A DNA stretch of 64,000 bases. Source: Psococerastis gibbosa (Eukaryota; Arthropoda; Insecta; Psocodea; Psocidae). Shown here piece by piece: positions 38,901 through 63,059 of the stretch. The stretch's first letter is position 1; each line of letters opens with the position of its first letter. The stretch is from assembly GCA_963971405.1 (NCBI GenBank), contig OZ020492.1, forward strand, positions 2,914,001 to 2,978,000, given 5' to 3'. The position numbers were made by a program, and so were the translations under genes. The notes beneath the pieces are model-generated. The model was not told the origin of the DNA. It was given only the letters and a program-made list of their open reading frames with translations, and ran no database searches.

Positions 38901-41900
38901 AGCGAAAACAAGGGGAGCTTTACAGATTTGACTGGAACCAACTTGCCTAACTTGTACTGTGCCTTAACAAAAATGCTGTGTTTAAACAAAAATTGGAATT
39001 GCTTGCATACTTGTGTTTGAAGGGAATGAGGATTTTATTTAATTTATTTATTTAATTTATTTATTTAATTTATTATTTATTGTTAACCTCAAGGAACATA
39101 AGTTTGCAATGACATTTCAAATGCCAGGTTCCTCTTAATACTAAATTTTAGAATGATAAAAATAGATTAACATTAATTTTGTTTGCTAGTATTTTTACAA
39201 CACCCATTTTCATTGTTTCAGAGAGATGATTTGGTTATCCGAGCAGCTCGAGTCGGAAATGCTTTATGGCACCCGCAGTGCTTTCTCTGTGCCACATGCA
39301 ACGAAAGGCTTGTCGATCTTCATTACTTCCATGACAAGGGCAACATTTACTGCGGTCGTGACTTTGCTAAAGTGGTTAATAAACTACGATGTTACGCATG
39401 TGACGAGGTATGTACATAGAATACGCTTTGTCTTTTTTTTTAGGTTAGATCAAAGCGATACGTGATGCCTGTAACAGAGTAACAGGACTATCGGCCTGCC
39501 TGCCAATCACTCAGGCAGAACTTGGCAATGACATCTTTTAGTATTATTATTCTTTTGAATGTTTTTTTATGGACGTTTGTCTCCTTTTAATGGACCATTG
39601 AATTTTGAGTCTGGCACTTTTTACTAGCATCGTTGCTATTTAATTACCGTCCCACGTTTCTTATTGCTTTCCAATTCATACGTATAAGGAAAGTTTTGTG
39701 ATGGTCAAAATTTTCGGTTCCGAGATTTCAACAGATTTACACGTTTTCAGGTCCCAGGAACCCAAAAAAGTGGTTCATACGAAATGTCTGTGTGTCGCTC
39801 TGTCTGTTCATCGATTTCCAGGCAAACTACTCGGTCGATTTTGATGAAATTATGCATGTATGTTTATAAAAATCATACCTCGGGACCTTTTTTTATTTTG
39901 GGGTAATTAAATTTTGGTGGTTTTATTCTCCAAAAACCGTCCAAAAAAAAGATTATTTCTCAAAAACGGCTCCAACGATTTCTTTTAAATTCACATATGT
40001 ATTATTCGTTATTAATTTTAACAAAATGCAGTGGGTCGCTTGCCCCTTGACAGTTTGCTTCTGGGGGTGAAAAAAAAAAGTTAATTTGCATGAAAAATGA
40101 CTAAAAAATAATTTTTCTGCGGAACCATTCTATCGAGGATTTCTACCTTCAGGTATGTTTTAGGTGTTAATTTGAGTAACAAAACCGAAAAACTGGTTTC
40201 CCAACCAAAGATTTGGTTTTGAGCAAAAATTATTTCTTGAAGAAATTATAGAAAATTCACCCTCCAATACATTGCGTGCCGTACACTAGATATTGTTGAA
40301 TGGAGTTTTAAGGATTTATATATATGTAGAGGTTACCTCACCTCCGGTGACGTCAGATGGACCCCCCCCCCCCCCCCCCCCGCGGGATCCGAAATTGATA
40401 AATTGGAAAGCATGTTCGAGTAAACTCGGACCGGTTCTTTGGCAATGCTAACGTGGATGTACACGATCATTTAAATACTTGTCATAACAGAGTGGACATG
40501 GTTCAGTATTGCTCTATGTGGTTGTGAAGGTTCTGAAGCATTGTATACTTCCCACAACCTTCCGCCAATGGCTTCTAAAAATCTTTTTCGCAGTTTTAGT
40601 GCCACCAACAGTTGAGAAAATGTGTCATTGACTGGGGGTTGACCAACAGCTAAGATATAACCTTGTCCTTGTCTGTTTCAGCTTATTTTCGAAAACAATT
40701 ACGCTTGTGGCAATGGTCACTTTTTCCATAGTCGTCACTTTTGCTGCTCCGTCTGTACAAAAAATTTGGGCGGGGAACAGTTTATCTCTAAGAACGAGAA
40801 CATTATGTGCAAGTCTTGCTACCAGAACGAGTTTGACAAGGCATGTAATTATTAGCTGTGTTGTAGGTTTGTTACAAGGGCTGTTCGTAAATTAAGGTCT
40901 CCCATACATTGGAAAAACCAATTATAGATTATGAATCGTCATGATCGATGAATTTTAGAGAAGCTCCGGAAGCGTTTTCATACCCGTTGTGTACTACTCT
41001 CCCACCGACCGTTGTGGTTCAGGCGACATGAGAGTGGTCATATTTACTGTGCAAACCAACTCCCTTTCTCAAAGTCTTGTCCACGCTAGTCTAAGAAACG
41101 GCTCCAATCAATCACACGCCGATCCACAACTTTCGGCACTGTCTCGTCCGTTAATGATGGACGTCCGCACGTCATGCACGTTCTTACGGCCTTCTGTGAA
41201 TTCCTTAGAACACTGACGCACATGTTTTGCGTCCATACGCTTTATCCATACGTATCGACCAACTGGCGAAGGATTTCGAAAGAAGTTAAACCCGCAGATA
41301 TACAATTACAAAATGTGATTCACCCTTGATGGGAGTAGAGTTCTACAGAGGAGAGATGGGACATTCGCTCCCGCCGCGCCACGGATATTTTATTTATATC
41401 TAGGTACACCTAGGTACTTCTTTTTCAACCAATCAGATCACGCATTGGGTAGATTTGCATACAGGAGAGATTTTTTTAATTTCTGGTTCATTCTGCCACG
41501 TCTCCAATCAGAGATTCAGTCAATTGACACTCCTCTCGACCATTCAGAACAAAGTCTTGCAGCTCCGACGGGATTTTATATTCTTTGGAAGTACCCACAG
41601 TGTGCTCAGATTGGTCGAAAAAGACTTGGTAAGTGCCACCAGATTTTCAACAGCTATCCTTGGAGTGGCGAATTCTCCAACACTCCTATATGGAACTCAA
41701 GGCGTTGAGCTACTCTTACACGACGCCTATAGAAAGTAATCCTGATAACTATAATCAGCTCGTTGCCAGGGGACATTAAAATGACTTAGAGGAAATTGTA
41801 TCCGAAAGTGGGAATCAAGAAATGAAACTATACAATGCGGGACTCGTAACCACGATCTCTTTCTGGGACATAGGTTGCCTACACCTTGGTCTTTCTAGTT

Positions 41901-42135
41901 TTTCAAACAATTAATCAGCTTTATTAATTGGAGATTGTTTCATTTTTAGACTTGTGAAACTTGCAAGAAACGGGTTTCTCCTTTTGAAGAGCGGTTGCAA
42001 TTTGGAGGAAAAGTATACCACAAGGAACCGCAATGCTTCGTATGCTCTTCCTGTGGTGATACTTTGCAAGGAAATGGTACCTTTATCCTCCACAACAAAT
42101 TGCTTTGTATGAAACATCGTCAGCCAGTTGTCTAA
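35921..42135 (+). CDS. TES: Testin: PET domain plus three LIM domains; 7 coding exons, 410 aa
   Basis: Exons: 35921-36063, 36886-37057, 37378-37605, 38580-38738, 39222-39407, 40682-40840, 41950-42135. All are in phase. The N-terminus has the testin Cys-rich block (SPCSACTFCPGLELHFWRKA, then CNLCGC). The PET domain lies at about 85-181 (FDWIPITEDPSLVEEYM; RRKQLEKQLPRYDVDP). LIM1: C226, C229, H251, C254, C257, C260, C278, D281. LIM2: C291, C294, H312, H315, C318, C321, C339, C342. LIM3: C351, C354, H373, C378, C381, C384, C402, H405. Human testin is 421 aa with the same order. Testin sits at focal adhesions and stress fibres, binding zyxin, Ena/VASP and actin-related partners, and can fold so that PET contacts its LIM domains. 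Intron 6 uses a GC donor (AAG|GCATGT). Prickle and Limpet share PET-LIM but lack this N-terminal block and three-LIM ending. Confidence 0.95.
36300..36866 (+). repeat. Rep-1 3' portion, in testin intron 1
   Basis: It keeps 'aaaaatggcttaaaaaagca', 'acctttctatcaatgctt', 'aacaaaaccgaacaagttgg' and ends 'ggcatgttcgagtaaattcg' plus 'gaccagttctt'. The family end lies about 20 bases before the acceptor of testin exon 2 (exon starts 36886). Confidence 0.8.
37835..38290 (+). mobile_element. CR1-like LINE 3' fragment in testin intron 3
   Basis: Decayed frames read LPRDAARPYFEWLGILTEPS and, further on, DTHAYRTRGRDNFETPQHRT. This is the post-RT segment seen in CR1-like LINEs, where the R-x-x-FxxLxILxxPS and H-x-YxTR motifs recur. 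The end (gtatgggtgtaagccag) recurs at 62489-62650. Confidence 0.65.
39661..40439 (+). repeat. Rep-1, near-complete copy in testin intron 5
   Basis: About 780 bp. It starts 'ttattgctttccaattcata' with 'cgtataaggaaag', carries 'tgtctgtgtgtcgctctgtc' and a C run of about 20 bases at 40363, and ends 'ggaaagcatgttcgagtaaa' then 'ctcggaccggttctt'. Both termini equal those of 6477-7180, which defines the family limits. Confidence 0.8.
41045..41300 (-). mobile_element. Mariner-like transposase remnant in testin intron 6
   Basis: The minus strand reads RMDAKHVRQCSKEFTEGRKN, then VHDVRTSIINGRDSAES. It resembles the N-terminal helix-turn-helix part of SETMAR/mariner transposases (...F.EGR.NVHDE.RSGRPS.I.D). 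It is broken, with stops following, and covers only a fraction of the gene. Confidence 0.5.
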
Positions 42136-43005
42136 CAAAACATCGTCAGTAGTACAAGGAGTATAACTTGAAAATGAGTTTTTGTTTATTACTGATCCAA
42201 CCTAGATGAGAAAGGACTAAATAGCTCCATCTTAGACTCAACTAGCATGGCCTGAGACCGCCTACTTTACCTGTCCTATTTGGAGAAAGGTGTTACTGAT
42301 CTGTTTCTTCAGCTACATGCACATGAATATCCAAAAATATGATACAATTATAATTTTTTATTTAACAAATACAACAAAACTCTAAAAAATGTATCCCCTA
42401 AAGAAATATAATTAGGTATCAGCTCACTTTGAGAATCGTACCCGCGTTCCCTACTTAACGAAGACAACTAATTCATTGGCATTAATACACATTTCAAAAT
42501 TCTGTTGGCGCCTCCCTCAAAACTCAAGATATTTACATTATTAGGAAGCTGTACCAGAAATTCGGCTAACTGCTTTACCTCCTTAACCCAAGTGTAAAAG
42601 TAATTTCGTTTAGTCCTCGTTCACTTGTTTTCCTTTAAGGCCCCGCCGGACACACCCACTATGCATTTTTTGGACAAAATCAGATTTCACAGGAATCTTT
42701 TTTTCATAAATAAGTTCCTTAACTGTGACAAATCGGTGTCAAAATGTAGAGGAACGCTACTACCTTCAACATATGATTTATAGGTCTAAGTTCCATCTTT
42801 TCTGTGAAATTTTGATTTAGTGCGCCAAAAAGATTTTTCCTCTCCGGTTTTCTCTTAATTTACAATTCGTTAAGAATATCGATTAATAAGTTCAGTTCTG
42901 ATATAGTTGTGCTTACAACTCACTCATAATAATTAAAATATTTTCAATAGAATACGAGAAGACGAGATTAACACAGTATTATGAAGTGGCAAATAGGTAA
43001 TTCTG
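42136..43005. other. Convergent interval between testin and the unnamed minus-strand gene
   Basis: It holds the 3' ends of both genes. A decayed SINE A fragment (minus) lies at 42190-42290, recognisable by 'gactcaactagcatggcctgagaccgcct'-like sequence. Nothing else is seen. Confidence 0.5.
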
Positions 43006-46000
43006 TCAGCTGGTCCATTCTAAAGTCTCTTGCAGTGTCCTTGAGTTTAGCCGCTCTATTTCCTCAAGGAGTTGCTCTGTTTCGTCCACTTCTTCATGCC
43101 TGCAACAACAGCATAATATATATATCTTCATTAGATTTATGTATGTGGCCGTCACTAACTACGATTAGCCCCTATTATGTAAGCCTCACACTATTCGCCT
43201 TTATTCCAACCAAATTCTATAACTGTTCCCATTCGGTGATAGAGACACTACTGTAGTTTGGGGCTCTCTACCGAGGACACACAGAACAGGACTGCGAGGA
43301 AACGCTGCTGTCGTGCCACCGACCCTCCATAAGGATAAGGCGCGGTAAAAGTAAGTATATACATGAACACATGGTTTTTCTAACGTCACAATAGACGTAG
43401 CAATTGATTGCTATCGATATTTCACGTGAATTTAATTTATCTTTCCCCCGGGCTTTACACGAGTGTGACGTATAAAAAAAAATGCAAATTCAAGGGGTTG
43501 AAAATATAGTATTATTGAAAGAAAAAGTAGATTGTTCAAGGTATAAACCAGGCCCGGCGGAAATGTTTTCCTCTTATATCGAGTCTCAAATCTCAACATG
43601 ACGTTTCATGCGAGGAACCGCTGATCCTTTATCTTCTAATTTTAGGGAATTGTTCAGTTAGGCCTTGTAGCCTATTGTACTCCTGAGTACGTATTATTAC
43701 TACTACTTGTTCCTCAAGGCCTTTTCCTTCGTGAAGGGCAAGAAACTGGCGTGAGTTCGAAACTTTTCATGTTACACTTTTCTGCTGAACTAATCCGCGT
43801 ATGATAGATATAGTCTCTAACTAAACACGATCATACAACATACCATTAGACATAGCAGAAATGTGTAATTTGCTTTAAGTCAATATTTTTATCAAGAAGC
43901 ATATATATATATACATAATTATATAGATGCATTCTACAAATGTTAAGCCTGAAGCGAGGGGGAAATTTAAACAAAATGGGGAAACCCTTGTAAGGCCAGC
44001 ACCACGCACAGCCAAGTGTGAGCGATTGCATCCAATAAATACTACAAGGTTTCGCCTACCTTAGAATATTCCCGATTGAACTGAGAGCGGCAAGAAATAT
44101 TACTAACTTCCCTAAATTGCTTAGAGACCATGCATGAGAGAGTTTCTTCAGTGGAAGTGATACATGATAAATATTTAAATAATTTATTTACAATTATTTA
44201 CTTATTTGACTTAGAGTAAGCTTTCTACACTGTCGCAGAGGCACTAACACAATGGGAATGACAGACTAACTGATTTTTGACGATATGATTGTCACTGCGG
44301 CACTAGCACACTGTGACAAAGACAGAACTACCTGATTTTGACGATTTTACCCTTTCTTGTCGATTGATTATTTAATTTGATAATTTAATAGAAATATAAT
44401 TTTTTTTTATTTATGGTGTTTCCGCAAGCTCTGCCACTGGCGTACGCTGATGCCTATACACTGATACTTACATTTGCCCACCATTTGGGTCCCATTCCAG
44501 AGAGTCGCGTGAAGACACCCTAGACCATCCACTGGGGCTGGTACCACTTGCTATTTCTTCAACCCTCTCGCTCAGTCCATGGGCCAACCACCTTTCCCGA
44601 ACCATCTCTGGTAAATGCTCCCACTCCAGTTCCATTGAGTTGGTTGGAGTTGAGTGGACGCTTCGTCCAAAAAGGATTTTTCTAAATAGAGTTTAAAATA
44701 ACTACTTAAAGTTTCGACAATCACAAAGCTTTCCTTATACTACGCATAGGTAAATAGGAAAGCAAAAGGTAGCATGTGGTAATGTTTCATCTCCTCATGT
44801 GGCGCACCTAAAAATGTTTCGCCTTTACCATTGCAGTAGACGTGCCCGTGTAGTGCGCTTTCTCAGCAAATGAATTTTTATTATGCATTGCACCCGGAAC
44901 TATTATTATTTCGTTTTTAATAAAAAGAAAGTGTTACTTTGGAAAAAATTAGCCCGGGGGGGGGGGGGGGCAAAACAAACAAACCAGTTCCAGCACTACT
45001 TTAAGCACAAATTTAGTATTTACCTATCTCACAATCACATAAACATTACAGGAATAATAAAGAACTAATTGATGATCTCAATACATATTTTAATATTTGA
45101 CTCCGTATATTCATTATTTATTTCACTCTAGTCGATGCATGTTTCATTGCTCATATCATTAAAAAATAATTTAATATACGACTAATCTGTTTACCTTACC
45201 GCATAAGTTTTTTAGATTAGTTTTCAGGTTAGTTTATAAATTAGTAATTAATCTTAGGTAAAATCCTAACGGTACCCTTTGAAGCTCCAATGCTAAAACT
45301 GTATGCTTGCATGTAATAAATATTTAATTTAACATACTAATAAATAGGCACTTTCGGCAGTAATGTTCTCAATCCTCGGATAGTTTTGAAGAGGGGGGGG
45401 GGGTTGATTTGAGGTCCACAATGAAATTAAGTATTACCCTCTCATCATTTCAGAGCAGGGGTTGCGGTGTGTGAAGAAGCGGCAGAAGGGTTCTGAGGCC
45501 TTGTGCAAACTTTTAACTGAGATTATTTCTAAAGTTATCTTCATAATGTTGATTATACTAGTTTGTCTAAATGTTTCCAACAACAATAGTTTCTAATATT
45601 TACCTGTTTGGTACAATTTGCGGCATAGGGTAGGATGATTCATTATCGCTGGAGCACCAGGCATCATCAAGAAGTTCTAGTCGCAAGCTGGGGTCCTGAG
45701 ACAAAACAATCAAATGTATTTACATACTTTATTATTAAGGGTAGTAGTACAGAAGTTCAGGGTCTGCCCGAACACTTACTAGTCACCTAAGGTGGCTTAT
45801 ATCAGAATTACGATGATATATTGACTGACACACATCATATTGATTGGTTGGAGGCATTGATGCTGCAGGTCATTAAATAAATCAACGTAGTAGTTTGCTT
45901 TATGACGAGGTCGAGCTGCGTCCATGTATTGCATGGATGCAGATAAAATGACAATACACGATTGATTGATTGATTGATTGAACGCTGTAGTAATAATAAT

Positions 46001-46967
46001 ACTGAAGTCAAATTTTCCATAACACTAACGCTTTGAAGTAAGGAAAGGGGAGGCTACAAATTACAATGCATTTAAAATTTTGTCATGGCTTATTGTGCAC
46101 CTGTGATTTCAGCGATATGATACATAAAAGCTGACACATACCTTCTTGGATCTAAGCCTAGCGAAGTATCCAGAGAGTCTTCGAAAAGCATGAAAGAAGT
46201 TTTAGCATAGCATCATTATCGTACTACTTAACTAATTAGAGAATAAAATTAGGCCATGTAAACAAGCTTTATGTTTGGAATCACTAAATTCTGACTTCGA
46301 TTCAGGCCTACATCATTGGTTGGGGGCGGGGGCGGGGCGTTTTCGTGGGCTGAGGCGCAAGCAGGACTCAGAGCCATAAACATTGGCCCTTTACCCCGGG
46401 GAAGCGGTGGCTACCTATGAACTACAAGCCCTAGACATGCTTGCGAAGTTAAATTATTGGCATGCACTTCAGATTCAGAGAAAATCAGCCACACCCACCC
46501 CCATCAAATGTAAGAAGATATATTGATAGTAGAGCCATCAATAAGACATTATAAAAATAGAAGAAATGCTCCCCTACATTCTGATACATAGTAAGTATGT
46601 GTCCACAGTTTTGGAAAGTGTGAGAAAATCTAAGAGTAGGCTAGGTCCACACCTTTCAAAACGAGGCTAGAGACGGCTATGAACGAATTAAAAGCAGAGG
46701 AACATTTCATCTAATTTATTTCATCTGATTAATGGATCAATATTTCGTGCAAAAATTTATTTTGTACAAAAAACCGAGAGTGAGGTTTTCGATTTGCTCT
46801 TACAACAGTAGAATATTTCATATGAGCAAACGTACTTAACGAAGCCTTGTTTTACACCAGCGCAAAAGCAGTCTTCATTTTTGGTTGTCTCGAAGATGTC
46901 TTCGACATTATCAGTCGACGCTAACCGGACGCGTTTATGGCCATCTTCATCTCTCCAATAGAACCAA
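43006..46967 (-). CDS. Unidentified host gene with LEW-acidic motifs; 5 joined 3' exons
   Basis: Minus-strand exons 46967-46836, 46178-46142, 45695-45604, 44681-44472 and 43099-43006 (stop TGA) join with every phase matching: 2, 2, 0, 2 and 2 in turn. All use AG acceptors and GT donors (GTACGT, GTATGT, GTAAAT, GTAAGT). The 187-residue tail reads WFYWRDEDGHKRV, LSGYFARLRSKK, LLDDAWCSSDNESS, then NSMELEWEHLPEMV, SRDSLEWDPNGGQ, DETEQLLEEIERLNS and ETLEWTS at the end. LEW-D/E is the W-acidic motif that recruits kinesin light chain in proteins such as nesprin-2. The last part looks helical. A Klarsicht/nesprin-type cytoskeletal linker is my best guess, but no KASH segment is seen. Probable upstream exons are listed separately. 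Confidence 0.7.
43255..43350 (+). mobile_element. LINE 3' scrap, same family as 21838-22260
   Basis: It shares 'cgccgaccctccat(a/g)agga' and the preceding Arg-rich coding remnant with the end of the 21838 copy. It lies just upstream of the last exon of the unnamed gene, in its intron. Confidence 0.5.
44700..44767 (-). repeat. Rep-1 terminal fragment
   Basis: 'cacaaagctttccttatact' followed by 'aaataggaaagcaa' is the reverse of the family start. It lies 20 bp from the exon starting at 44681. Confidence 0.6.
45860..45985 (+). mobile_element. CR1-like LINE 3' terminus with hairpin and ATTG tail
   Basis: It holds 'gaggtcgagctgcg', a hairpin at 45916-45942 (CTGCGTCCATG, loop, CATGGATGCAG), then 'ataaaatgacaatacacg' and a tandem GATT tail. 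The same order occurs at the end of the LINE at 47005-50620. It is a solo 3' end from a severely truncated insertion. Confidence 0.7.
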
Positions 46968-47004
46968 CTGCAATCATCAATCGTCCAATACAACATCGGC
47001 ATGG

Positions 47005-48830
47005 TCATAAAACTTTATATATTGGTTGATAAGCTGAACGTTATCTGCGATAAACTTAACAGAGAAGGCAGGATTGGTGTGATCTGTGGGGATTTTAACG
47101 TAGACACAATAATAGATAATAGGCGATCATTTTACTTCTTGGACATGTTTTCCACTAACGGTTTTGGCCCAGCTCTACATGAGCCAACCAGAGTCACCAT
47201 GGAGAGTGCCACCGCGTTCGACAACATTTTCTTGAATATAGATTTTGATAGCAATTTTTCGTTGAGAATCATACCGTATGCTTCTCTGACCACAATTCTC
47301 AGACCCTTACATGTGTCAACGAGTCTCTTTGGCCCAGTCATGGGCATGACCCATCTTTTGCCTATTTCCGGCCTTATAAGACAGCCTCGCTCAACAGATT
47401 CATCTCGTTTCTCTCCACTCACTCTTGGGATTCCCTGTACAGCATACAAGACATAGAGCAGGGTTTTACGCGTTTTCAGGATATACTTCCTTCTTACTAC
47501 GAACTCTCATTTCCCCTCAAACGTGTATTTGTTAATAAAAATATTTCTTAGCGCATGGGTTCAGCTCTGAAATCTAAATTTGATCATCGTATCCGTGATC
47601 TTAAGCTGCTGGCACGCTCGTCAGGGCGTCCGGCTGTGGCTGTGAGATACAAGAACGTCTTAAAAAAATTAAAGAAGGAACTCAACGACTGGGAAAGGGA
47701 CAGGGCTAGCCAAAGGATCAAGGAGTCGGGAAACATTGCAAAAGCGTCGTGGAAAATAATAAATGAGCACAGACCCTTACTAGCTGACAAAAAAAAAATT
47801 AACAAAATTCGAACCCACGACACCGGTTGCATTATTTCTGATTCCCATAAGATAGAGTCTGAGTTTAATAGCTATTTTAATCGTGTCATTACTGATCTAT
47901 TAAAAGACATGCCCAGTAGAAATCCCACAGTCCCAGCCGCCCCTCCCGTAGGTGCCACTATTGAGCCTACATTCGTGCTCACCCCAGCTACCACCGATGA
48001 GGTTAGAGAAGCACTGCGTACCATGAAGCGCACTGCAGCAGCCGGCGTGGATGGGATACCTTGCCGTCTCCTAAAAGACGCCAGAGAAGTCCTCCTCGAG
48101 CCAATCCTACACCTCATCAATAAGTCGCTCCGGGAGGGGGTTGTACCTAACTGTTGCAAACTGGCTATTATAAGGCTTGTGTACAAAAAGGGAGACCGGA
48201 CCAAGTTGTCAAGCTATCGCCCTATAAGTCTTTTGCCAGTCTCTCTAAGATACTTGAAAGGATTGTAAACACGAGGCTGATTGTATATTTAAAACAAAAC
48301 AATTTGCTTGTTAAGGAACAATGCGGTTTTAGACCAAAGCGTTCAACAAGAAATGCACATGTTACATTCCTTGAAAGTATCTTAAATTCTTTTGAGATGC
48401 GGCTTCAAACGCTCGCGATATACTGTGATCTGTCTCACGCTTTTGTTACTTTCGACCATAGTATATTACTTGAAGAACATAAACACCATGGGATAGTAGG
48501 CCCGGCTGCCGACTGGCTCCGCTCCTACCTCAGTGGCAGACGACAGAGGGTATCTGTCAGTTTTGAGGCCCTAAAAGAAGGAGCCCGCAATGGTGACTTT
48601 AGTGTGGCCATTGACGGAGGGGATTGGTTACCTGTAACCACAGGTGTCCCTCAAGGCAGCATTCTCGGTCCCACACTCTTTCTAATATATATATTAATGA
48701 CCTCACTGGTCAGCTGGAATCTGCTCCAGGTGCACCTTGTGCAAGTCTCTATGCAGACGACACAGTGGTTTTTTTTTTGGCGTCGGCGATGGGGAGCCAT
48801 TCAGCCACTAATGTGCGGCAGTCTTAAATA
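47005..48830 (+). mobile_element. CR1-like LINE ORF2: endonuclease C-terminus and reverse transcriptase (first part)
   Basis: Plus-strand frames give the endonuclease end (RIGVICGDFNVDT; TAFDNIFLNID), a linker, then the RT. RT segments: AGVDGIPCRLLKDA, YRPISLLPV, KILERIVNTRL, EQCGFRPKRST, the first catalytic region LAIYCDLSHAF, GVPQGSILGPTLF, and the YADDTVVFF catalytic box. Several frame changes and stops split it, so it is inactive. It is 5'-truncated about 40 bp from the exon at 46967 and lies in an intron of the unnamed gene on the opposite strand. It resumes after a nested LINE at 49670. Confidence 0.88.
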
Positions 48831-49667
48831 ACTTTTTTACTGCTTTTTAAAAAATTATGAAGGGCAAAATATATTGTTGGGCTGGATGTTTCTAAAATTG
48901 AAAGTAGATCGAAAGGTCTGACTATGGAATTTGGGAGGCAATTAAGGAGGACTGTACGTTGTGCTGAGTGTGATGGGCATTCTAATATAATATGCTGTAG
49001 GGTTTCAGTTGACCCCGGACAAGTGTCGCACATGCCACTGGGGTCCCTACCTATCTTCCACAAATACCTCTTCGTGACCCCATGGCCACTTCTCAGTCTT
49101 GTAATGGTCGCATAAAATTTTTTTGTGAGTGGTGACTGGTAACCTTTAAACCACGGAGAAAATGATATTTTTGGGAAGATCTCCTTATACTGAACCCCAG
49201 CTGGGTAAGCGGAGAATAGTCCCTGCCACTTCGCCAACAGTGACTGTCTTATGTGAAAACCCAAGTCGGACGGGGGACATGCCGGGTCCTGCATGTCAAT
49301 GCACCTATGACGGGTAGCTTCCTTGGCCAAAGCGTCTGCCGTCTCGTTTCCTACGATCCCGACATGTGCCTTAATCCAAATAAATTTTACAGGCTAGCTG
49401 TTCGAGAAGGGTCAGTATGTCAATCTCTGGCTTTATAAAATCGGATCTCGGAGAGGTGTTTCTAAATTTCTCCACTAAGCTCAAGGAGTCAGTCAAAAAC
49501 ACCACTTTTTTAATGCGGGCTTCCCTTAATGCTACAATATATTCCATCGCCATCTGAATGGCAATTAATTCCGCGGTGTAAACGGACGCACGACGCAGTG
49601 GTGATACTTGAGGTGAAAAATGAAGGCGTGGCTGAGTCTGATGGTTGCGCCGTAATGTCCATAGCAA
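48831..49667 (-). mobile_element. RNase H-type LINE fragment nested in the CR1-like LINE
   Basis: The minus strand carries YTAELIAIQMAMEY, VVFLTDSLSLVEKF and, in the next frame, the C-terminal part CDTCPGSTETLQHIILECPS with a stop near 48824. So it holds part of an RNase H domain plus knuckle of another LINE lineage. It interrupts the host LINE between YADDTVVFF/NVRQS and AKSYLDNNRLVLNTIKTEY, proving it came later. Confidence 0.82.
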
Positions 49668-50620
49668 AATCTTATCTCGATAACAACCGACTAGTCCTTA
49701 ATACCATCAAAACTGAATACACTGTGTTCGCACCAAAAATTCTAGGAAGCTAACTCCAGTTATCAAAATCGGCGACACGGCTCTCCGTCAGACGCAGTCT
49801 GCAGTGTTCCTGGAGGTGAAATTTGACTCAGACCTGACCTAGCGCCCCCATGTTGCTAGACTCTGCCCAAAATTAGCGTCAGTGGTATATCTTCTCAGAA
49901 ACCTTTCACACTGTGTTGATATACAAACACTAATTACAGCGTATTATGCCTTGTTTGAGAGCAGGCCACGATATGGTGTCGAGTGCTGGGGAGGTCCTAC
50001 CGACGCTACTCGCATCTTTAAGATGCAGAAAAGGGCCATTAGGGCGTTGAATGGGACCTGGGACCAAAGGGTGTCATGCCGTCCCCTTTGTCCATTACTG
50101 GGAAAGAGCTGTACACGCACACCAGTTGCCGTTCCGTCGCAATTGTGACATTCATGAACACGACACGAGGAACAGGGGCAGACTGGTTGTCGAAAGAGGA
50201 TAGTGGCCACAACACGTGGACCAGCACATCTTGGCTCCAAAATGCTGAACAAGCTCCCCTTGGAGATGGTGAGCCTGCCTCATAAGGCATTAAAATCAAG
50301 GCTCAAAAATCTTTTGGTCTCAGTCTGTCCCTATTCCTTTAAAGAGATCATGGAGACCGACCTAGGTAGTCTTACTTCCTAAACCACTCTTCAGGGCTGT
50401 TAGGAATTAAGTTGTTTGTTTGTTGTTTTAGGTATTTGAATTTTATTTTTTGACAATTAGGGCACAAAATGTGCAGTTATATCTGGTGCCCTAATGATGA
50501 CAACGTGAACAGTTAATTATTAATTTATTACGTATGTACTTGCAATTTGTTTTATTACGACGTCGAGCTGCAACCATGGATTGCATGGTTGCAGGCAAAA
50601 TGTCACGAAATACACACGTA
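49668..50620 (+). mobile_element. CR1-like LINE, second part and 3' end
   Basis: The RT thumb and tail continue: AKSYLDNNRLVLNTIKTEYT, then LISAYYALFESRPRYGVE-like sequence and RIFKMQKRAIRALNG. After the tail comes a 3' UTR ending in the hairpin at 50568-50594 (CTGCAACCATG, GATTG loop, CATGGTTGCAG) and 'gcaaaatgtcacgaaatacaca'. Together with 47005-48830 this makes one insertion. Confidence 0.82.
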
Positions 50621-50689
50621 AGCAAATTGTGGTGAGCTGCCCAAAAACTGATTCACTAGCGCTGCGTTCTTTTTTTTAAAAATCAAATG

Positions 50690-50998
50690 CATTATTCGCA
50701 CAGGCTAGGATAGGATTATAAATCAAGGGTTGAGAAGAGAATTCGGCGTAGAAGAACCATTGGCAATGGTTTGGACACTTAAAGCAATCGATAACAGCAG
50801 GTGCGCGAGGAAATGGGTGGAAGAAGAAACATATGGAATACGAAGAAGAGGGCGACCAAGGAAGAGTTACGGGGGAACACCACTTATTAAGCAAAAAGGC
50901 ATTAGATTTTCTGACAAATGTTGCAAATATAAAATAGCTCAGCGTAATCAGGCTTTCATAGAAGTTTGTAGCGACAATAAACAACATAACCTAACATA
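50690..50998 (+). mobile_element. LINE 3' fragment (RT tail)
   Basis: The plus strand reads LAMVWTLKAIDNSRCARKWV, then RRRGRPRKSYGGTPL. This is the W-x-GHLKRMDNSRW...GRPRKSW tail of another LINE family, largely open for 89 codons. Confidence 0.7.
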
Positions 50999-51353
50999 AC
51001 AATTGGACAAATGGACATTGATGCCATACAATACAATATATTTGTCCGTTAAATTATACGATATACAATGCCATGCGGATAACAGAATAGGCTACTACCT
51101 ACCAGAAAACAGAACTAGTGACCAATGCTCAATATTTACGAAGCACTGTAAACATATAGTATATCCTGGTAAAGATTCATATTACTATAGCTAGTCCACT
51201 GTACACGAACTGTGACAAAAATGCATGAGCATTGGAAGGTAAACGTCCCATTTACTTTTGCACGACAATTTACATTTCAAACAAACAATGTTTTATGTGC
51301 ACAATTGCCTCCGACACTTAAAATGCTGACATGCAATAAGTACCCGTACTTAC

Positions 51354-51381
51354 CAATGAAAAAAATTCGACTTAACCTGGA
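51354..51381 (-). CDS. Probable microexon of the unnamed minus-strand gene
   Basis: A strong donor (CATTG|GTAAGTACGGG) at 51354 and an acceptor (gttgctcacag) at 51382 bound 28 bases coding QVKSNFFH. Phase 1 in and phase 2 out fits the exons on both sides, giving SNFFHCWFYWRDEDG across the junction. A second acceptor would extend the exon to 51407. Confidence 0.45.
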
Positions 51382-51829
51382 CTGTGAGCAACAACTCATT
51401 GCCGACCCTTCAATCTCTCAGAAATGAGTTTATTTTAAGCTAAATGAACGATATGTATACACATTTTGTGGTTTGATAAGAGGTAGCAAGTGAGCCTTAA
51501 CTTTAATCCTCTTGACTAAGGTGCTGGCCCACGAAGCTCTATGGATAAACTATTAATTATAGTAACTCTGTCTCAATGGGCAATCATAAGGATGCCACCA
51601 AAATCTTACAAAAACAATGTTGCCGACGATTTAAGAAAATATCTAGGTTTGGCTTATAAATATAAAAGTTTACTCACAAGGCGCCCATGAAAAAAAACCC
51701 TTACCGAGATGCTGAATGGTAGACAAAACAACGCCCTAAGCAACTTCCCATAACATTTCGAATGGCTAACTCAAAAAATATTGAGGCAAAGACAGATAAG
51801 CCGATTCATATTTCAATTGAAGCAAAACT

Positions 51830-51995
51830 CCCTGCCTTATGGCAGCCATATTTATTTTGAGTTGGGTGGGATTGACATTTGACAATGACATCATACTTCA
51901 CAGCAGGGCCCTCGTAGCTCTGATTGGTCGAGTTAAGGTTGGCTATTATGGCAGGATATGAAAGCAACGTTTGTTTAAAAAATGGCGGGAATATG
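51830..51995 (-). promoter_or_regulatory. Candidate promoter-like cluster
   Basis: The minus strand holds TTCCCGCCATTTT (E2F-like), CCAATCAGAG (CCAAT box) and ATGATGTCATTG (CRE-like) within 130 bases. It could drive a shorter form of the unnamed minus-strand gene, whose exons continue downstream. Motif matching only; no transcript start is seen. Confidence 0.3.
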
Positions 51996-52886
51996 AAAAT
52001 TGCCTTTTTTGTTTCTTGACATTTCTTTATGTTTTAGAGTAGTTAAACGGTTCAACTTTAAAATAAAGGAATATTTTCCACCTGTAGTTTTAATCCTTGC
52101 GTTTTTCTAAGCGTGAAGGAGAATCAGTGAAAAAAATGATTTTTATCTTGCTTGCTGGCTACGCAATTATTCTGAAATAATCATTCTAAATCAATCCTAT
52201 TACTGAAACGTGTGCCACGAATTCTAACAAATAGCTGGGCTAGAAAACCATATAAGCCTATCATTTCCGCCCTAGCTATACTATATCAGTAAATGCACAT
52301 TACTTAGTAGCCTAAGCTATATAAAAAATATCGGGAAATTCAGCAATAGCCATGACTTCCATATTACACATCCAGAACAGCTGATCCTTGAGCATTCCTC
52401 AATGTAGATGAAAAAAAACCTAGTTTACTTTAAAATTAGACAACGTGAATCCAGTTAGGCCCTGATTTAAACTCAAAATGTTGATTTTATTGATTTCCGT
52501 TGCTGTCGTGGATTGACGGGATAATTATAAATACTCACATTATTGATTATTTACTTTCGCCACTATTTCTTAACGTAGTCATCTTTCTACTCTTGCACTG
52601 ACTTGACAGTAGTCACTGCCTTTCTGTAGGTCTCTTCTACTGGGTACACAGGCAGTGACATAGAATGCCTTTGATACTAGGATTAGTCTTATTGAATTAT
52701 ATACAGTATATAACAGTTGCCTCCTGTTTATTTTTTGCAATACCATGCGAGATACGAGGCAATGACCACGTTATTGGTTTCAATCCTAGCACGTTCAGTC
52801 GCTCTAAATAAAATGTACAATATTATAAGTTTTTTTATAGAACATATTCATGCAGAAATGTCACATAAAACTTCAGACGAACGTAC

Positions 52887-52950
52887 CTGTTGCTGCTATG
52901 CTTTTACAGGTATATATTTCTTTATCAAAAATACTTCCAGTTGAAGACGT
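52887..52950 (-). CDS. Probable exon of the unnamed minus-strand gene
   Basis: Acceptor ctctgtctag at 52951, donor ACAG|GTACGT at 52887. The 64 bases code TSSTGSIFDKEIYTCKSIAAT, phase 0 in and phase 1 out, with no stop in that frame. It fits the 51381 exon (next) and the 53997 exon (previous). Confidence 0.5.
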
Positions 52951-53996
52951 CTAGACAGAGCGGAAAATGCGTTTCCAGACATCACGATTCCCTTTACCCC
53001 ATAGTGTCTCTACCTAAGTCAACCTGTCAATTCAACGACTATTATACTATGCCATAATAATATCATCATTAAAATATTGATAATGCCAATTATAATCAAT
53101 ACATTTTATTTGATACCTATTTGACAGCATAATAATTTTAAAGAACTCAATGACAAATAAAGCAAAAATGTAAATAATTTTGCAATACCAAATTAAAAAA
53201 ACATATAAGTATCGTAGAATCCTAAGGGACTTATTTTAAAAATATACTACCTTTGCTATTTACAAGTCTACAATCATTTAACTGAGGAAACAAAATGCAA
53301 ACTAAGCTAATAGGGTAGGCTGCCTGGCTCATGAAATAGGTACCTAGCCTAGTATTCTCGTGACGAAATTGCAGAAATGACAAATATGCCAGATATTGGA
53401 AAACCGAAACTGGCTGCAATTTTTTCTAGATGCAGTTTCATAGTTAAGTCTACTTATAGTAGACCACAACATTAGAACAAATGAACGCTGATGTCATTTA
53501 CAGAATTGTGGGAATTTTGCAACTTCTACCCCAACCAAAGGACAAAAGTCATGAGTATATGTAGGCAAGAACCCCACGTCGCCTATATAATATGTGGACA
53601 AATTTCATGCGTTATATTTGAACAATTGCCCTTAACTATTTCTCAACCAAAACATGATTTTGGATAATTTAATGAATCCTACACTGCTCCTCAACTCAAT
53701 GTTGCAGAGTGAATAATCAGTTGAGCTAAAATATGTTAAAAGTTCCCCTACAAGTAATGGTTGCAGCAGTGACATTAAAGTTTACTCACATATTCCTAGT
53801 TCATGATTAGGCCCAAAGCAAGGGAACATTGAACAAGAGATAATTTTAACGTCAATTATGTTGGGGTCTCTTTAAACAGCAAAGAATTAGTTGTATAAAT
53901 AACGATAAAAAAACCCAAATAATTCGAACCTTATGACGTATTAAGGTGGATTCTAGGGAAAAACGTAAGTTAAGTAGAACTGATAACTTAACTCAC

Positions 53997-54073
53997 ACAA
54001 GAAGTGGTTAGGCAAGGCTCTGCAAGTTCATTATCGCTTGACATCGACTGCGATGTGTCAGATTGCCCATGGC
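53997..54073 (-). CDS. Probable exon of the unnamed minus-strand gene
   Basis: Donor TGT|GTGAGT at 53997. Acceptors at 54074 (tatatacag) or at 54048 (acatcgcag). The coded sequence SMSSDNELAEPCLTTSC is acidic and Ser-rich, like the later SSDNESS region. Out-phase 0 fits the next exon. With the inner acceptor it also fits the exon at 54581-54708. Confidence 0.45.
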
Positions 54074-54580
54074 CTGTATATAATATATAGTAGAAGAAAC
54101 AATACCAGTAATGAAAATTGAATGAGGTTGTTGGCAGGGCCAATAAAAAGCCAATCAAAACCACTAAAATAACAGAAATAAAATAAATTTTTATAATTGA
54201 TTGCACGTGGACTGTAAACACATCGCTGTTGAGTTCTATTCAAACTTCATTAAAAATAAGCTAAATATTTTTAACCCTGTCCAGTTCGCCTGTAGCGTTA
54301 ATTACTGATTGTTTACCACGTAATTTCGCCATAATGCAATTATTAGACAAAATCTATGATTCTTTTACTTAGGTGAAACCGCCTTAGCATATGTAACATT
54401 AAGAATATATAGTAACATTCAGGCTTATAACTAATAAATGAAAGGTTCCACTGGGTAACAAGACTCTTTGCAGACATAAGGGACCACAAAATAGGATTAA
54501 TAGTCGCTAAGGCAATTTAGCTAAAAATGGATTTAGTATCTAGACTTTGGCCATCGCTGGTTTGAACCTATTGTTCTTAC

Positions 54581-54708
54581 TTTTGGGGTACGTTTCTTTG
54601 TGCACGCACTTTGTGACTTATTGTGTCCCCTGCTTAGAATTACTACTTCATGTACCCCTAGACCTTCTTCCTTAACGAGGGACGAGGTGCTAGGATCTTG
54701 CAGGAGTT
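54581..54708 (-). CDS. Possible exon of the unnamed minus-strand gene
   Basis: An open stretch of 42 codons (ELLQDPSTSSLVKEEGLGVH, ending CTKKRTPK) is bounded by an acceptor (ttaattcatcag) and donor AAAA|GTAAGA. It lies only 300 bp past the SPPL3 stop codon, so it could instead be SPPL3 3'UTR. This is the least certain exon of the chain. Confidence 0.3.
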
Positions 54709-55005
54709 CTGATGAATTAACTAGTTATCCACATATTGAATGGGATGCATTTTTAACACTTTACATAGTAACTTGGATTAAAAAATAAATGGGTTGACTT
54801 CGAACCAGGGGTGACCAAACTATGCCTTTTTAACATTCATCTTAATAATTCACTGCCTATGAATTCCTAAAATTGAGTTAGGTAAAACGCCATTATGTCT
54901 ACAAGTCTAATCAAAGTCAAGACATTTGCGGATCTGCGTTTTTACACGGACTGGCTCGCTAAAATCACAGGGATACTCGTCATCAGAGTAGCCCAGTGGG
55001 TCTTC

Positions 55006-58000
55006 TCAGATTTCAATTTGTTTCCCAGGGGTCTGACTAATGAATGGCTCACTCCACATCCGTCTTAAATCCCCCTGAAATCAAATAGAAGCACAATATT
55101 ATTATTCTTCAAGGACGAGCAAAAGCAACAGACAGTTTTGCATTAAATATATTAATTAATTGACATTTCTGTTTCCCTTTCAACCCATTCTCCATAAAGG
55201 TACATTATATCAATATTGTATACACAGTAATAATAGCTAAACCTAAACGTAAACAAACAAGACAACAAAAAAATTGGCGCGACTACCCATTGAGGGTGCA
55301 GGCCTGATGACTAGTAGATCTACTTTCTCGCTCTATTTGATATGTTGTGGTCAGCTGGATGTCAAGGTTAGCGGTGAAGGAACGGTATCCATTTCAGACA
55401 GGGGAAAAGTTTTCCACTTATGTGGAGTTTCGAACCTAGCTCTTCCGTTTCATAGATGAGTTTTCCACCAAATGGAGTAATTTTACAAGGTAATAAAAAA
55501 GAAGTAGCTACACTTTCGGGATAAATGGAGTAATTGGTACCGGGAAGCTGCCTGTTAGCAAAATATAGAATGAAATCGCAAAAAACTGTTATGAGGTAGT
55601 TGTAAGACGTGAAAACGTATCTCCCAATTTTTGAACCACCACCCTTTTGGGACAAATTATTTTTCGAGTAGATTTTGCGTTGTTCTTTCTCACCAAATTG
55701 CCACTTACGACTTATTGTTGTCAACTCTTAGTGCTTAGGTTAAATTAATTACAGTAAGTGCAGCTGCACTAATGTCATGTTTGGGGACATTTTGACTAAA
55801 AAAAACTAAAAATTCTTCAGCAACGTTATGAAATCCCAAGAAAGAAGTTATCTTCTTCGTAATTCCATAGAAAAAAACTTCCAACCCGTTATTTTCGGAC
55901 CTAACAAAATGCAAGTTAGGTCTTTCTTCCTACTATCGTGACAGGACTCCAAAACCTAGTATGGGTTCATTTTAAAGCTTATGGAAACCACTAAGAGAAA
56001 ATTCAAGCTCTTATAAGTTATGAAACTACACACACACTGGGTCTTACTCTCTCCATGGGCCACAATATTAAACAATAGCAAATATAACTTTTCCTCTGAT
56101 TGCCCTACCCTCCCAATTACAAATTTTTTTACTTCGACCTGCCACGATTGGCAACTTCGCAATCGGTCTTGAATTAAGAAATATCCCATGGCCACACACA
56201 GCTCGACCTCACTTAGTGGGGCTTTGTCAGGAACACTCTTTTCTACTTATGCCTACATGATCGCTCTACGATCGACATTCCTATGAAATTGGACCTTGGG
56301 TAAAAACGGACGGATAGGTCTCTTAAGGAAGTTGTGGGATTTTTTATTTTATCACGAGCGCGAGCAGTGGCATTGTTAAAACTACACGGTACCAGTTGCG
56401 TAAAACTTCTAAGTGTGCAGTAAGAAAATTAAAATCATACCTTAAGGTAGGCCATGGTAAGTAAGGGCAGTAATGTAAAAGGGACGAGGTATAAAAGAGC
56501 TGGTTGCGCAGCTTTGAACACCTCACTGGACACCGTGGCTGTGACGAGACCCAAGAAATACCCCAGCAGCGAGCAGTGGAAATATGTGATGTTGTTCAAA
56601 TGCTTAGGTGGTGGGATGCCCAGCTCACCGAGGTGGAGAAGTTGAGACTTCTTGTAGGCGTCGTAGCGGAGAACGAAGCATAACAACAGGCCAGGCATTA
56701 CCTGCAACAAAATTCAACATTGGCGGGAATGTTATGGAACGTTATGTTATGGACGGTTATTGAATATCTACGATGCGGGGATGATGGATCCAAGAGTTTT
56801 ACAGACGACAGATGGCGATTCGTTCCCACCAAGAAATTTCCGAACCACTTGACACATCTTCTTTCGACAAAGAGATCACTCCTTGCAGCCACAACGGGAT
56901 TTGTTAGTAGTTTGTAAGTGTCCAAGGGAAGCTTTAAATAGCTGAGGGATGACGTGTCAATTAGCGGAAGCGCTTCAAAAATTCCTTGGTGGGAACGATA
57001 AAGCTTCCCACTGATCCCACTAAAAAATCTTGACCACAAGTACTAGTCATTAGTGGCACAAAAAGCATCAAACACATAGATATTTTTTTTTAAATCAATC
57101 AACATCAGTTTGCTACTAATTAGCTATTCTGTGGCATTGAACTTACAATATCGCCCAGCCCAAGCATGGAAAAGTGACCAGCGTGATTCATACTAGGGAA
57201 CACGAGTTTCCCCGGCAGAGATAACTTAGGAGCGTCCTTGACAACGCCTCCAAGGTGAAGTCGCCGTGCCATCATACCCACTGGATTTTCAGCAGGCCTC
57301 GTGGCTACCTGAAAATAACATGCACAGATCTCACACCTCAACTCTTAAATATAGCTTTCATTTTATGTGTAGGCTCATATAGAATGTGGTTACATTTACA
57401 ATCTTTGTTACTAGAAACTCAAACAATTGGCTTAAAAAAAGGTGTGCTTATGCACCCTCGTGCCATGGTCCAAAAAATTGAAAGCATTCCTAGGCGAATG
57501 GTGGTGCCACTATGCCGAATAAGGGCTGACCAAGGCCACAGCATGCATCAAATTTTTGAAGAGGAATTAGCCCTGTTTGTACATATTGCGCAGAAGGAGA
57601 GAGCAGATTCGAAGGTTTCTCCTGTCCGCACTTTAATATCATCCCCCTAGTGCTTCTTAATACGTAGATCAATCAATCAATATAATATAATCATACTATG
57701 TACATTTGAGAGACAAATTAGGCGTACTATAGCTCTCCTTTCTTACAGGAAACTTGTGAGTTACGTCTCTGTATTCACCATCTTCTATGACTATACCGAC
57801 ACTTACAACTTGACTTCGAACTGGTAGTTGACCCTCATTCCAGGCTAAATGAAGAACAAAGCGACATGAAAGAGTTATGTAGAGCAGGTGATACCAATAG
57901 ACTTGACCGTAGTTGAAATGGTCGAAATGACAATAGACAGTATGTCGATAGCATCCATACCCTTTTCCATCAGTAATAGAATCAGGGGCAACGCACTGAT

Positions 58001-61000
58001 GGCAGACCAGGAATATTGGTGGCAGTAGCGCTTCCCCTACTACAGTCCACTATGCACAGGGACTTAAGAGCTGGCTCCGGCAGAGCAGGAACAATTGACC
58101 TGCAGTTCAGTTCCACGTTCCCCTTCTATCGATGATACTTTTACTATTACAAACGTCCACGCGAATTCAGCATTACATTCACCCTCTAGCTGTTGCGCTA
58201 AACGCGCTTAAGGAAGTTTTCACTTAAACAATTTCTCCATACCTTGACCATAACGTTCGCATTGAAGATGTATGATGAAAAGAAGACCCAAAATACGTCA
58301 TATATTAGTAGGCCAGTTAAAAGTAAAGTTGAGACCTTAAGACTTGGCAGTCGCACAAAAGCAATGAACGCAACGCACAAGCCCATTCCCATGGCTGAAA
58401 CAGAATAAATTATAATTAGGATAGCACATGTAGGTAATTTAGCGGTAAACCCCAAATTAAAGACACGTCTTACGATATGAAATGTTTTCATCAATTTTAT
58501 TTTTCTGTGAACTAATGAATCTGTTTCAGAATCAATTTTCCTGTGTTTGTAGATACATAAAAAACGGGGTTGTGGTCACATTAAGCAAGACGTTTTGTTT
58601 GTCAAAGGATTCTTAACCACATTTATTGTCACACCTTAATATTTTCCTTGGAACCAATATAAAAGCTCAGCTTGAGTGAGAGCCTTGCCATATAGGCATT
58701 TTATATGTTATATATCTGTCCTATGGGCCCACACCGTGGCCTGGGACTGTGTCCAACTATACTACTACTATGTTATATATTATGTGTTTACATCAAGAGG
58801 CCAATTTGAACAATGTACCTCCCGACTGCTAAATAGTGGTTCTAGTGACTTCATATATCCGACTTGGGATTGTTGTAACGTGTACAACCACGTGCGGATC
58901 TGATGAGAGTTGGCAGAAAGGGCAGGGCGCTTATTGAGTAGCTATCAATTACGAGGACAAAAAATTCTATGCCAATCAAACAATAAAAAACTACTCGTTT
59001 GTTTTAATGACGGAAATAGCGCCAAATGCCTGAATAAAAATATGCAAAATTGGGAGCCAAACATATTACGCACCATCCATAAGAATCCAGTGACCTGTCA
59101 GCACCCAGATGCACACTATTAACAAGGCCAGAGAAAATGACAGCAATTCGGCTCCTGTGAACCGACCACACACTCCAAATGAGATCCTGAAATTAAATTC
59201 ACAAGTATCATGTCTCAGATCTAGCATAATGACATCAAAACAATTGGCAAAGGCATGTTTTGGACGAGCCCTGGGTAAGCACGTTGTCCAGTGCACTCCA
59301 GAAAGCACAATCTCACACCATCAACCTCTCAAGCCCCTTGGGACACAATGAAATATGAAATATTAACAGATAAAGGCGAACTGTTTTAGACGGCAACCTC
59401 GTTTTCCAGTGTACTGATAGCAATTTGCCTAACCACACGAATGCCACTCAGTACCATACTATTGAATTGCCATACAAACAGACAACACGTTAGCACCAAA
59501 GGGCGTTGCGTTTTGATTATCAAAAAATAATAATAATAACAGATAAATAAAACATATGACAAATAACATTAATGCAATCAAATATTAAGCACAAATAAAC
59601 GACAATAATAAAAGGTCCGTCCGTTGGTTAGCTAGTAATGCTTACTTTTTTCCGTCAGAGCAAGGGCGTATAATGTATTGACACATGGGCAACAGCAAAA
59701 ACGCTAACGCGACTGTAGCTATAACTGAAACAAAAGAAGTCTAAGTTAAGAATTTTTATCTCGAATAGAAAGGGTTCTAAAGGTGATTTGGGAGCTACCT
59801 GAGATTAATAGCGAACCGGGCACCCCACTATCAGTTTTTTGTACAATTGTGCCATCAGTGAGATGAACTAAATTTGAAGAAGTATTCTTCTGCATTTTAA
59901 CAAGTAGTTTGAGGTCAATAAATTCTTGTGCAGGATTATATTTAATTATAGACATTTAAAGCTTCTGAAGGAACCCTTATTCTCGACGTTGCGATAACGA
60001 AGCAGGGGCAACTAGAAATTTTACCATTACTCACTTGCTGTACAGATGGCGAAGAGCATTTGCATGGAATCGAAGAAGAAGAACATGACCAGAAGCGACA
60101 CGGAAGCCCCTAATGGCAGACACAGTGCTTGCAATGTGTCCAAAGTTTGCACACCTGAAATAAATAATAAGTTTTAGTAGCAAAGTACGAGTAGTTTCAA
60201 CAGCACAAGGGTGTACTGTATAATACCACAGATCCCGTTACGGCCCGGCCTTACAAGTTTCAGGTAGCTAGACTTTTCCGTTTTTTGCCTAATAATTGGT
60301 ACATTAGAAAAGGTTGTGCTCTTCTGATCATCTGGTAAGATGATTGGGTTTACAATGGTAATATTATCACTGATTACGCTTTCGTTGCTTTTAATGGCAC
60401 GAGAGATGATACCCCAATGGCCATGGTCGCAAAGTTTATGCGGGTGACGAGGACGACAACAACTTAGGCTTGAATTGCTTTCTCTAATCCTGACACAAGG
60501 AAGTGCCTCTGCTTGGAGTGATCACTTCCTTGGACCTGGGAGGAAAGATCCAATTAATTTATATACGTTATATGTGAAAGCACCAGTACCCAATGTACTC
60601 CATGGCACTTGTTTGATCTGTTTAATGGGCTAAGGCCTAGTCAGCGAACTAAAATTATATTAATAATATGCTTGAATTCCCCCGTAACCGTTTACGAATT
60701 AGGAAATAAAATTTTTTAGCTAAGAAAAGCATGGGCAAAACACTACCGGCACCTGTTGAAGGCACTTAAGAAAGGATGAGTAGGTAGTAAGACATTTTGC
60801 GAGAAACTGACTTTACTTAATTAGAAACCTAAAACTACACAATATATCTAGAGGGGTGCGCCTGACCATCAATAAGCCAATCAGCGGCCGGCACCTTTCA
60901 TACATACGCGTCACTGAACCTTTTGTAAATTGTTAAAGGCCTCAACAACTGTACAAATGCTTACCTTCTGTATTGGGCTGCGTATTAATTCCAGCCATAG

Positions 61001-61143
61001 TTTTGCTTCTTTCTTTCTCTTTTTCTTTCTCCCTTTCCCTTGCCTCCTGCTCCATGTTCAGTGAACGGAAGCTTCCATACACTATCAGTAGAATTGAGAT
61101 TAGGAACGTTGACACCCGCGAGGAGTCCATAATTGAATACGCC
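55006..61143 (-). CDS. SPPL3: Signal peptide peptidase-like 3 (SPPL3); 8 of 9 coding exons
   Basis: Exons: 61143-60965, 60154-60035, 59724-59646, 59186-59074, 58394-58243, 57308-57147, 56701-56441, 55074-55006 (stop TGA). Phases all match. They encode 377 residues; about 8 N-terminal residues must come from an unseen first exon, since exon 2 opens two bases into a codon and matches from 'AYS' onward. Total length equals human SPPL3 (385). SPPL3 is a nine-helix GxGD aspartyl protease of the Golgi/ER that cleaves type II membrane proteins, notably glycosyltransferases. Seen: catalytic YD in [11 protein letters not shown], catalytic GLGD in [12 protein letters not shown], the PAL motif in [12 protein letters not shown], and [20 protein letters not shown] at the start. 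Between helices 1 and 2 is a charged [10 protein letters not shown] loop. All key residues are intact. The gene reads in the same direction as the unnamed gene to its left. Confidence 0.96.
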
Positions 61144-61289
61144 CTAAAATAAATAAATAAATAATGGCTTTTCTCCACTCATGACCCTAAGTCCTACACT
61201 CAACTAGGACCCTGGACCACAAGCACGTAAGTACAGAGTTCACTAAATCCTCTACTAACATGTTCTCCGCCAAAATTCATAGGCAGGTA

Positions 61290-61452
61290 AGGCGCCATTC
61301 CACATACGTCAATCGTCAATGAAAAATTGAAAAATGACGTCAAAATGACGTAAATTGACGTGGTAGCAGAATTTTTAGTTTGTCTTTAATGTCTGCTAAA
61401 ACGTCATTTTTCAATTTTTCATTGACGATTGACGTATGTGGAATGGGCACCT
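61290..61452. mobile_element. MITE (family M1), complete, in SPPL3 intron 1
   Basis: Inverted ends AGGCGCCATTCCACATACGT and ACGTATGTGGAATGGGCACCT, with the arms continuing (caatcgtcaatgaaaaattg against caatttttcattgacgattg). TA flanks both sides. It is 163 bp. The element at 19149-19523 belongs to the same family. Confidence 0.85.
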
Positions 61453-61571
61453 TAGCACCAGCTACACAACTATCCAACCGAACAGGTTTGTGAGCAAACT
61501 TTATTACATAAAGGCAATGCTTTAATTAGTATTCAGGTAAGTAGATGATTGAGTGAACTCTATACTTCTGG

Positions 61572-61725
61572 GATTGTGGTCTAGCGGTAAAACCGGTGCC
61601 CCGGATAGGCATAGATCGTGGGTTCGAATTCCGACAAGTACAGATTTTATTAAATCATCTAATTTCGTTTATATTAGAGGAGGACCTCTTATACATAAGT
61701 TAATTAATGTCAGTATTATTTACCA
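61572..61725 (+). mobile_element. SINE-like repeat with tRNA promoter boxes (family B)
   Basis: A box TGGTCTAGCGGT and B box GGTTCGAATTCC stand 40 bases apart, followed by 'cagattttattaaatcatct' and 'aggaggacctctta'. The copy at 7590-7720 shares the B box half and body. The terminal stem of a tRNA does not pair, so a working tRNA is unlikely. Confidence 0.6.
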
Positions 61726-62488: not shown

Positions 62489-62650
62489 GAGGTAGGACAG
62501 TAGGTATGAGTGTAAACCAGGCAAGCGAACGCCAGACACTTTCATGAGTAGCGTAGGGAACAGTAGAGAGTTTTAAATGGAATAATTACAGATGTATAGG
62601 TGTACAGTACGTAAAATCGTTCCCTTGGTATTACTGAAACATACTCAAGA
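62489..62650 (+). mobile_element. CR1-like LINE 3' scrap
   Basis: 'aggtatgagtgtaaaccagg' and 'aacgccagacactttc' match the end of the LINE fragment at 38135-38200. Confidence 0.5.
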
Positions 62651-63059
62651 ACAGTGGTGTAAACAAGGAGACAGGGCGCCCGCCCCCTTTCCCTCCAAAG
62701 TGGGAAAATGTAAGACGAAATTAACTAATGTGAGTTGTTGAAAATGCATTATTTGCCAAGTCTAGTATATATTCATAAAAAAATAAACATATGTTTCTTT
62801 TAAATTATACAATCAAGTAATCGACAAGATAGTATAAAGTAAAATCGTCAAAGAATTCAGGGCAACAGTGAGCGGTTTGCTTTTGATAGAATTCAACATC
62901 GTCTCAGGCCCTTACCCGCGGCAAGAAGTTGCCGTAAAAGTTGAACTAAAAACAGAACAGTATGCAAGATAAAACACATTGTTAAGATACGCAGAGCATA
63001 GCATATAGTAAACAATAACAAACTAATTTATTCACAATGAGGGACAGCAAGTGTTACGA

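Follow-up and report, generated by a model that had tools for sequence, protein, structure and literature searches.

The W-acidic motif, a tryptophan flanked by aspartate or glutamate and often preceded by leucine or methionine at W-2, binds the TPR domain of kinesin light chain (KLC), and its carriers include calsyntenin-1, SKIP/PLEKHM2, nesprin-2, gadkin and BNIP-H (as described in PMC5450233; for nesprin-2 also in PMC13078783). Here we examine a candidate gene end with motifs of this kind in a 64,000-nucleotide stretch of the genome of the psocid Psococerastis gibbosa (contig OZ020492.1, positions 2,914,001 to 2,978,000, hereafter the window, whose numbering is used throughout). We put at about even chances the reading that minus-strand 45695-43006 is the 3′ end of a real gene, with a W-acidic tail that most likely would recruit kinesin-1. 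Like the described adaptors, the candidate has W flanked by acids and L at W-2, and, as in SKIP, two such motifs are present; it differs in that its supported exons and joined chain are without a Pfam domain and in that a third LEW stands at the very C-terminus. SKIP, calsyntenin and BNIP2/caytaxin carry RUN/PH, cadherin and CRAL-TRIO domains, and Pfam matched none of these, whether in the supported exons or in the joined chain. AP1AR (gadkin) has two LEWE motifs, separated by some tens of residues (not aligned here with the candidate); kinship with it was considered and rejected, its family PF15745 having no match at E<=10 in the genome searched, which was this one only (409 Mb, 68 contigs), and the joined protein having no Pfam match.

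The supported part of the candidate comprises three exons, which encode an acidic tail of 131 residues (27 D/E versus 11 K/R, net charge -16) that is probably disordered:

45604..45695, minus strand: exon E3, 92 nt, DPSLRLELLDDAWCSSDNESSYPMPQIVPN; acceptor 9.1, coding 7.1, donor 9.1 bits
44472..44681, minus strand: exon E4, 210 nt, encoding MELEWEH and SLEWDP; acceptor 4.9, coding 11.3, donor 8.1 bits
43006..43099, minus strand: exon E5, 94 nt, last of the chain, with ETLEWTS before the stop; acceptor 7.2, coding 9.2 bits

These exons are the probable end of a gene, as judged from their sequence. The initial annotation had read them as the last of nine short exons forming one gene that simple open reading frame (ORF) calling misses. 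All nine exons were found at the proposed places, with the borders 46836/46178, 46142/45695, 45604/44681 and 44472/43099 and the stop at 43006 exact and with AG or GT at each internal border, and joined in phase they give a single open frame of 258 codons and a stop (exon lengths, upstream to downstream, 45, 77, 64, 28, 132, 37, 92, 210 and 94 nt). The nine did not hold up as a unit: the three 3′-most exons stand out beyond chance, while two of the others are repeats and the rest occur at chance density. That ORF calling would miss the gene is likely correct for the last three exons and is unsupported upstream of them.

Our belief in a gene is owed mainly to the recurrence of LEW, more than to splice and codon signals. 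In the joined frame the three LEWs begin at residues 176, 219 and 254, within a span of 81 residues, and all of them lie in E4 and E5, which together make up 100 codons, in the frame demanded by the splices. Across the six frames of the window LEW occurs seven times, four of them outside E4 and E5; elsewhere, at 70 other loci, it was counted 17 times in 466,484 codons, so that about 0.0035 would be expected in 100 joined codons. As a control for after-the-fact choice, tripeptides of three different residues that recur three times within 101 codons were counted in 608,252 background codons, which gave 655 triples, 48 of them stop-free (mostly simple sequence), and only two that contain W, neither of them stop-free. 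The codons of the three LEWs differ synonymously (CTGGAGTGG, CTGGAATGG and TTAGAATGG), and protein-level constraint is therefore favoured over a DNA repeat.

Splice-bounded open segments were scored by generic splice matrices and by codon preferences, for which 7198 codons taken from kinase and WD40 matches at 59 of 60 loci of this genome served as the training set. For E3, non-overlapping segments that score equally well or better number 0.16 per kb of strand, and for E4 0.17; real genes, retroelements and the candidates are all included in these counts. Among 6968 terminal candidates 141 match or beat E5, E5 itself being counted. Summed exon scores with chain penalties are 23.5 for the last three exons, 23.1 for four, 21.7 for five and 9.3 for all nine, each exon added upstream of 45695 reducing the sum. 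As a chain, E3-E4-E5 scores 66.0, by which E3 is supported together with E4 and E5 as its first exon; this ranks sixth among minus-strand three-exon terminal chains, behind retroelement sequence (102.2 and 67.9), a GKAP gene (87.2 and 70.3) and the last three exons of SPPL3 (67.7), all assigned by eye. The best chain of the candidate's own 12-kb stretch scores 48.1 and runs from retroelement sequence into E3, E4 and E5.

The most serious rival, which we consider rather unlikely, is that there is no gene, and that E3-E5 and the other proposed exons are chance open segments bounded by splice-like dinucleotides in intergenic, repeat-laden DNA. An in-phase chain was found in all 36 overlapping 12-kb stretches tried (18 per strand, open-start scores 10.2 to 90.7), so in-phase joining is by itself no evidence, and two of the nine proposed exons are repeat. 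Against chance segments stands the recurrence of LEW in the splice-demanded frame with synonymous codon differences; moreover, in 40 first-order Markov shuffles of 64 kb the best three-exon chain scored 57.5 and 66.0 was never reached, and such repeats as were listed near E3-E5 are confined to introns. A number of observations weigh against a kinesin-recruiting gene end. The reversed sequence, both strands (128 kb of strand), yields two chains that match 66.0 (67.5 and 66.5), and two plus-strand chains exceed it (76.1, and 74.6 for a PET/LIM gene assigned by eye), so that significance is not reached by splice and codon signals alone. The splice weights and the amino-acid frequencies were generic values, only codon choice being trained on the genome. 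LEW was singled out after the fact, and stop-free triple recurrence of some tripeptide is found in the 48 background cases given above. Chance occurrences of L[ED]W[DE] were also found at two other loci, one of them opposite the KASH frame of L003 (C2:28.16 Mb), and a single such site consequently means nothing. No start codon was identified for the candidate gene, the AATAAA nearest to its stop lies 643 nt past it, and motif likeness is the only basis of the predicted kinesin binding.

The six exons proposed upstream of E3 are unsupported, because two lie in dispersed repeats and the others score at chance density (non-overlapping segments equal or better per kb of strand given last in each line):

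46836..46967, minus strand: candidate exon E1, 132 nt, unproven; coding 9.1, weak acceptor 2.1, donor 4.4 bits; 0.95
46142..46178, minus strand: candidate exon E2, 37 nt, unproven; coding only 2.4 bits; 0.73
51354..51381, minus strand: proposed exon at 51.35 kb, 28 nt, rejected as repeat; coding -1.0 bits; 2.21
52887..52950, minus strand: proposed exon at 52.9 kb, not supported; coding -2.0 bits; 1.08
53997..54073, minus strand: proposed exon at 54.0 kb, weak; coding 5.3 bits, one codon missing from the count; 0.93
54664..54708, minus strand: proposed exon at 54.6 kb, rejected as repeat; donor 1.1 bits; 1.69

The repeat search over the proposed exons at 54.7-51.3 kb, with 40 of 43 candidates scored, placed 54708-54664 inside a dispersed repeat (54709-54571) with two other copies listed, both spanning the exon, and 51381-51354 inside a repeat with 16 matches listed between 51510 and 51333, six of which span the exon whole and four cover part of it; the exon at 54073-53997 overlaps none of the repeats listed in that search. 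Further downstream lie two more repetitive elements:

43912..44414, minus strand: dispersed repeat in the E4-E5 intron; 85 matches listed, the window included, of which one lies elsewhere (44765-44708)
47013..48831, plus strand: long interspersed nuclear element (LINE) fragment with endonuclease and reverse transcriptase frames, from ORFs; named LINE by eye, with its right edge set by the ORF

The search around the E4-E5 intron scored 40 of 4387 candidates and listed repeats at 44765-44708 and 44414-43912; a second search, with 40 of 891 candidates scored, listed repeats at 45989-45886 and 45160-44994. All four lie within introns, and E3 overlaps none of the repeats listed in the second search, although with these numbers of candidates scored a weak DNA-level repeat under E2-E4 may have escaped. 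E1 is flanked by a repeat at 46700-46813 on one side and, at 47013, by the edge of the LINE on the other, and its origin as LINE sequence was rejected, as the two other partial LINE copies listed, both on contig C12, start at 47013 and 47020, beyond E1. These copies have identities of 97 and 98%, in keeping with a possible recent activity at low copy number. RNase_H and zf-RVT matches in raw frames, below cut-off, were read as retroelement. Elsewhere in the window, at 2439-3830 on the minus strand, a retroelement reading frame with RNase H-like sequence was noted by eye.

Returning to the candidate as a kinesin-recruiting gene end, the likeliest function of the LEW tail would be that of a KLC ligand, judging from its motifs. 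Three W-acidic motifs had been proposed; by the description in PMC5450233 two of the three sites qualify (LEWE and LEWD), and the C-terminal LEWT fails on its C-terminal side. The first two motifs would bind the TPR groove of KLC, and the tail would thereby recruit kinesin-1 to whatever carries the N-terminal part of the gene product, with transport of this cargo by kinesin-1 via the acidic tail as the predicted outcome. It is unlikely that the exons are real and that LEW instead binds another partner, for example as an LC3-interacting region (LIR), with no kinesin role: site 1, ELEWEHL, does fit an LIR-like pattern, the core of which is W-x-x-L, and site 3 (LEWT) is a poor W-acidic fit, whereas the LIR-like pattern is missing from sites 2 and 3. 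Against such a partner also stands the LEW core common to the three sites, with an acid after W in two of them, as in the KLC ligands described in PMC5450233.

Searches for relatives returned nothing above noise. Neither the joined protein nor any of its parts matched a Pfam family at E<=10, so that the profile search proposed for the joined translation came back empty, the KASH, spectrin and AP1AR families included; weak Pfam matches in raw frames (DUF1414, E 0.065, and CarbpepA_inh, E 0.14) were rejected as below cut-off. In the PDB no credible relative of the joined protein or its parts was found, the best E values, 0.84 and 1.9, being taken as noise, and on viral contigs 32 stretches fitted a pattern, with no relative among them. 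Protein searches placed the translations of E5 and of E1 at one place each in the genome, and a search with joined E4 and E5, five candidates being scored, gave the two exons themselves and two other listed matches, both with E above 2. A paralog or repeat origin of E4/E5 was rejected, there being no second genomic place above noise, and the candidate gene is apparently single-copy in this genome. Tentatively, and with considerable doubt, the candidate may be a single-copy gene of restricted distribution that encodes a kinesin-1 adaptor with a multivalent KLC tail of three LEWs (the last 83 residues), unrelated to known adaptor families.

That the candidate is the decaying copy of a gene that formerly functioned is quite improbable: an upstream part that cannot be placed and a region filled with repeats and a LINE would suit it, and against it the joined translation of E3-E5 is without a frame break and no intact parent copy of E4/E5 was found in the genome. 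That the candidate is a Klarsicht/nesprin-type KASH adaptor, as the initial annotation had suggested, is extremely improbable, for although nesprin-2 is among the W-acidic carriers named at the outset, the candidate lacks a KASH or spectrin match, its chain ends ETLEWTS, and such kinship is unsupported because the over-cut-off KASH matches lie elsewhere in the genome. The KASH profile gave 11 matches at E<=10 across the whole genome and none in the window; two were over the cut-off, at C1:37.98 Mb (L002) and C2:28.16 Mb (L003). Both encode KASH C-termini ending PPPV, nesprin-like and Klarsicht-like by eye. Pfam found neither KASH nor spectrin in the minus-strand frames of the locus or in the joined chain, and no spectrin in the three minus-strand frames over 42998-62700, where repeats in short exons can escape and others may lie further off.

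The candidate lies between an SPPL3 gene, upstream on the same strand, and a convergent PET/LIM gene whose end lies tail-to-tail with it; the two flanking gene ends, at 55006 and 42117, are about 12.9 kb apart:

55006..55074, minus strand: last coding exon of an SPPL3-type signal peptide peptidase; assigned by eye, in-phase chain
36886-42117, plus strand: PET/LIM gene; one PET and three LIM domains, in separate exons
29439-34867, minus strand: exons of a GKAP (DLGAP-type) gene; PF03359, E 1.5e-14, outer exons by eye

Upstream exons of the SPPL3-type gene match Peptidase_A22B with E down to 5.2e-27, and from its C-terminus we take the peptidase to be SPPL3. Directly after the TGA of its last exon an open stretch, EDPLGYSDDEYPCDFSEPVR (55005-54946, minus strand, by eye), continues in frame; coding-looking as it is, it is most likely 3′ untranslated region. 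An alternative 3′ end of SPPL3, by way of a donor-like GTGAGC inside the last exon that is in phase with 54708-54664, was rejected, its target exon being repeat. In the PET/LIM gene, profile matches place the PET domain at 37375-37584 and the LIM domains at 39249-39371, 40685-40834 and 41953-42117 on the plus strand, and from the domain order the gene is presumably Testin-like. The GKAP match was computed at 31375-31181 on the minus strand, beyond the candidate's downstream side.

As it stands, the candidate is mainly a lead for gene annotation, the W-acidic motif class being already well known. If real, it would be a further adaptor linking a cargo to kinesin-1, and it would mean that short-exon genes of such a kind escape ORF calling.

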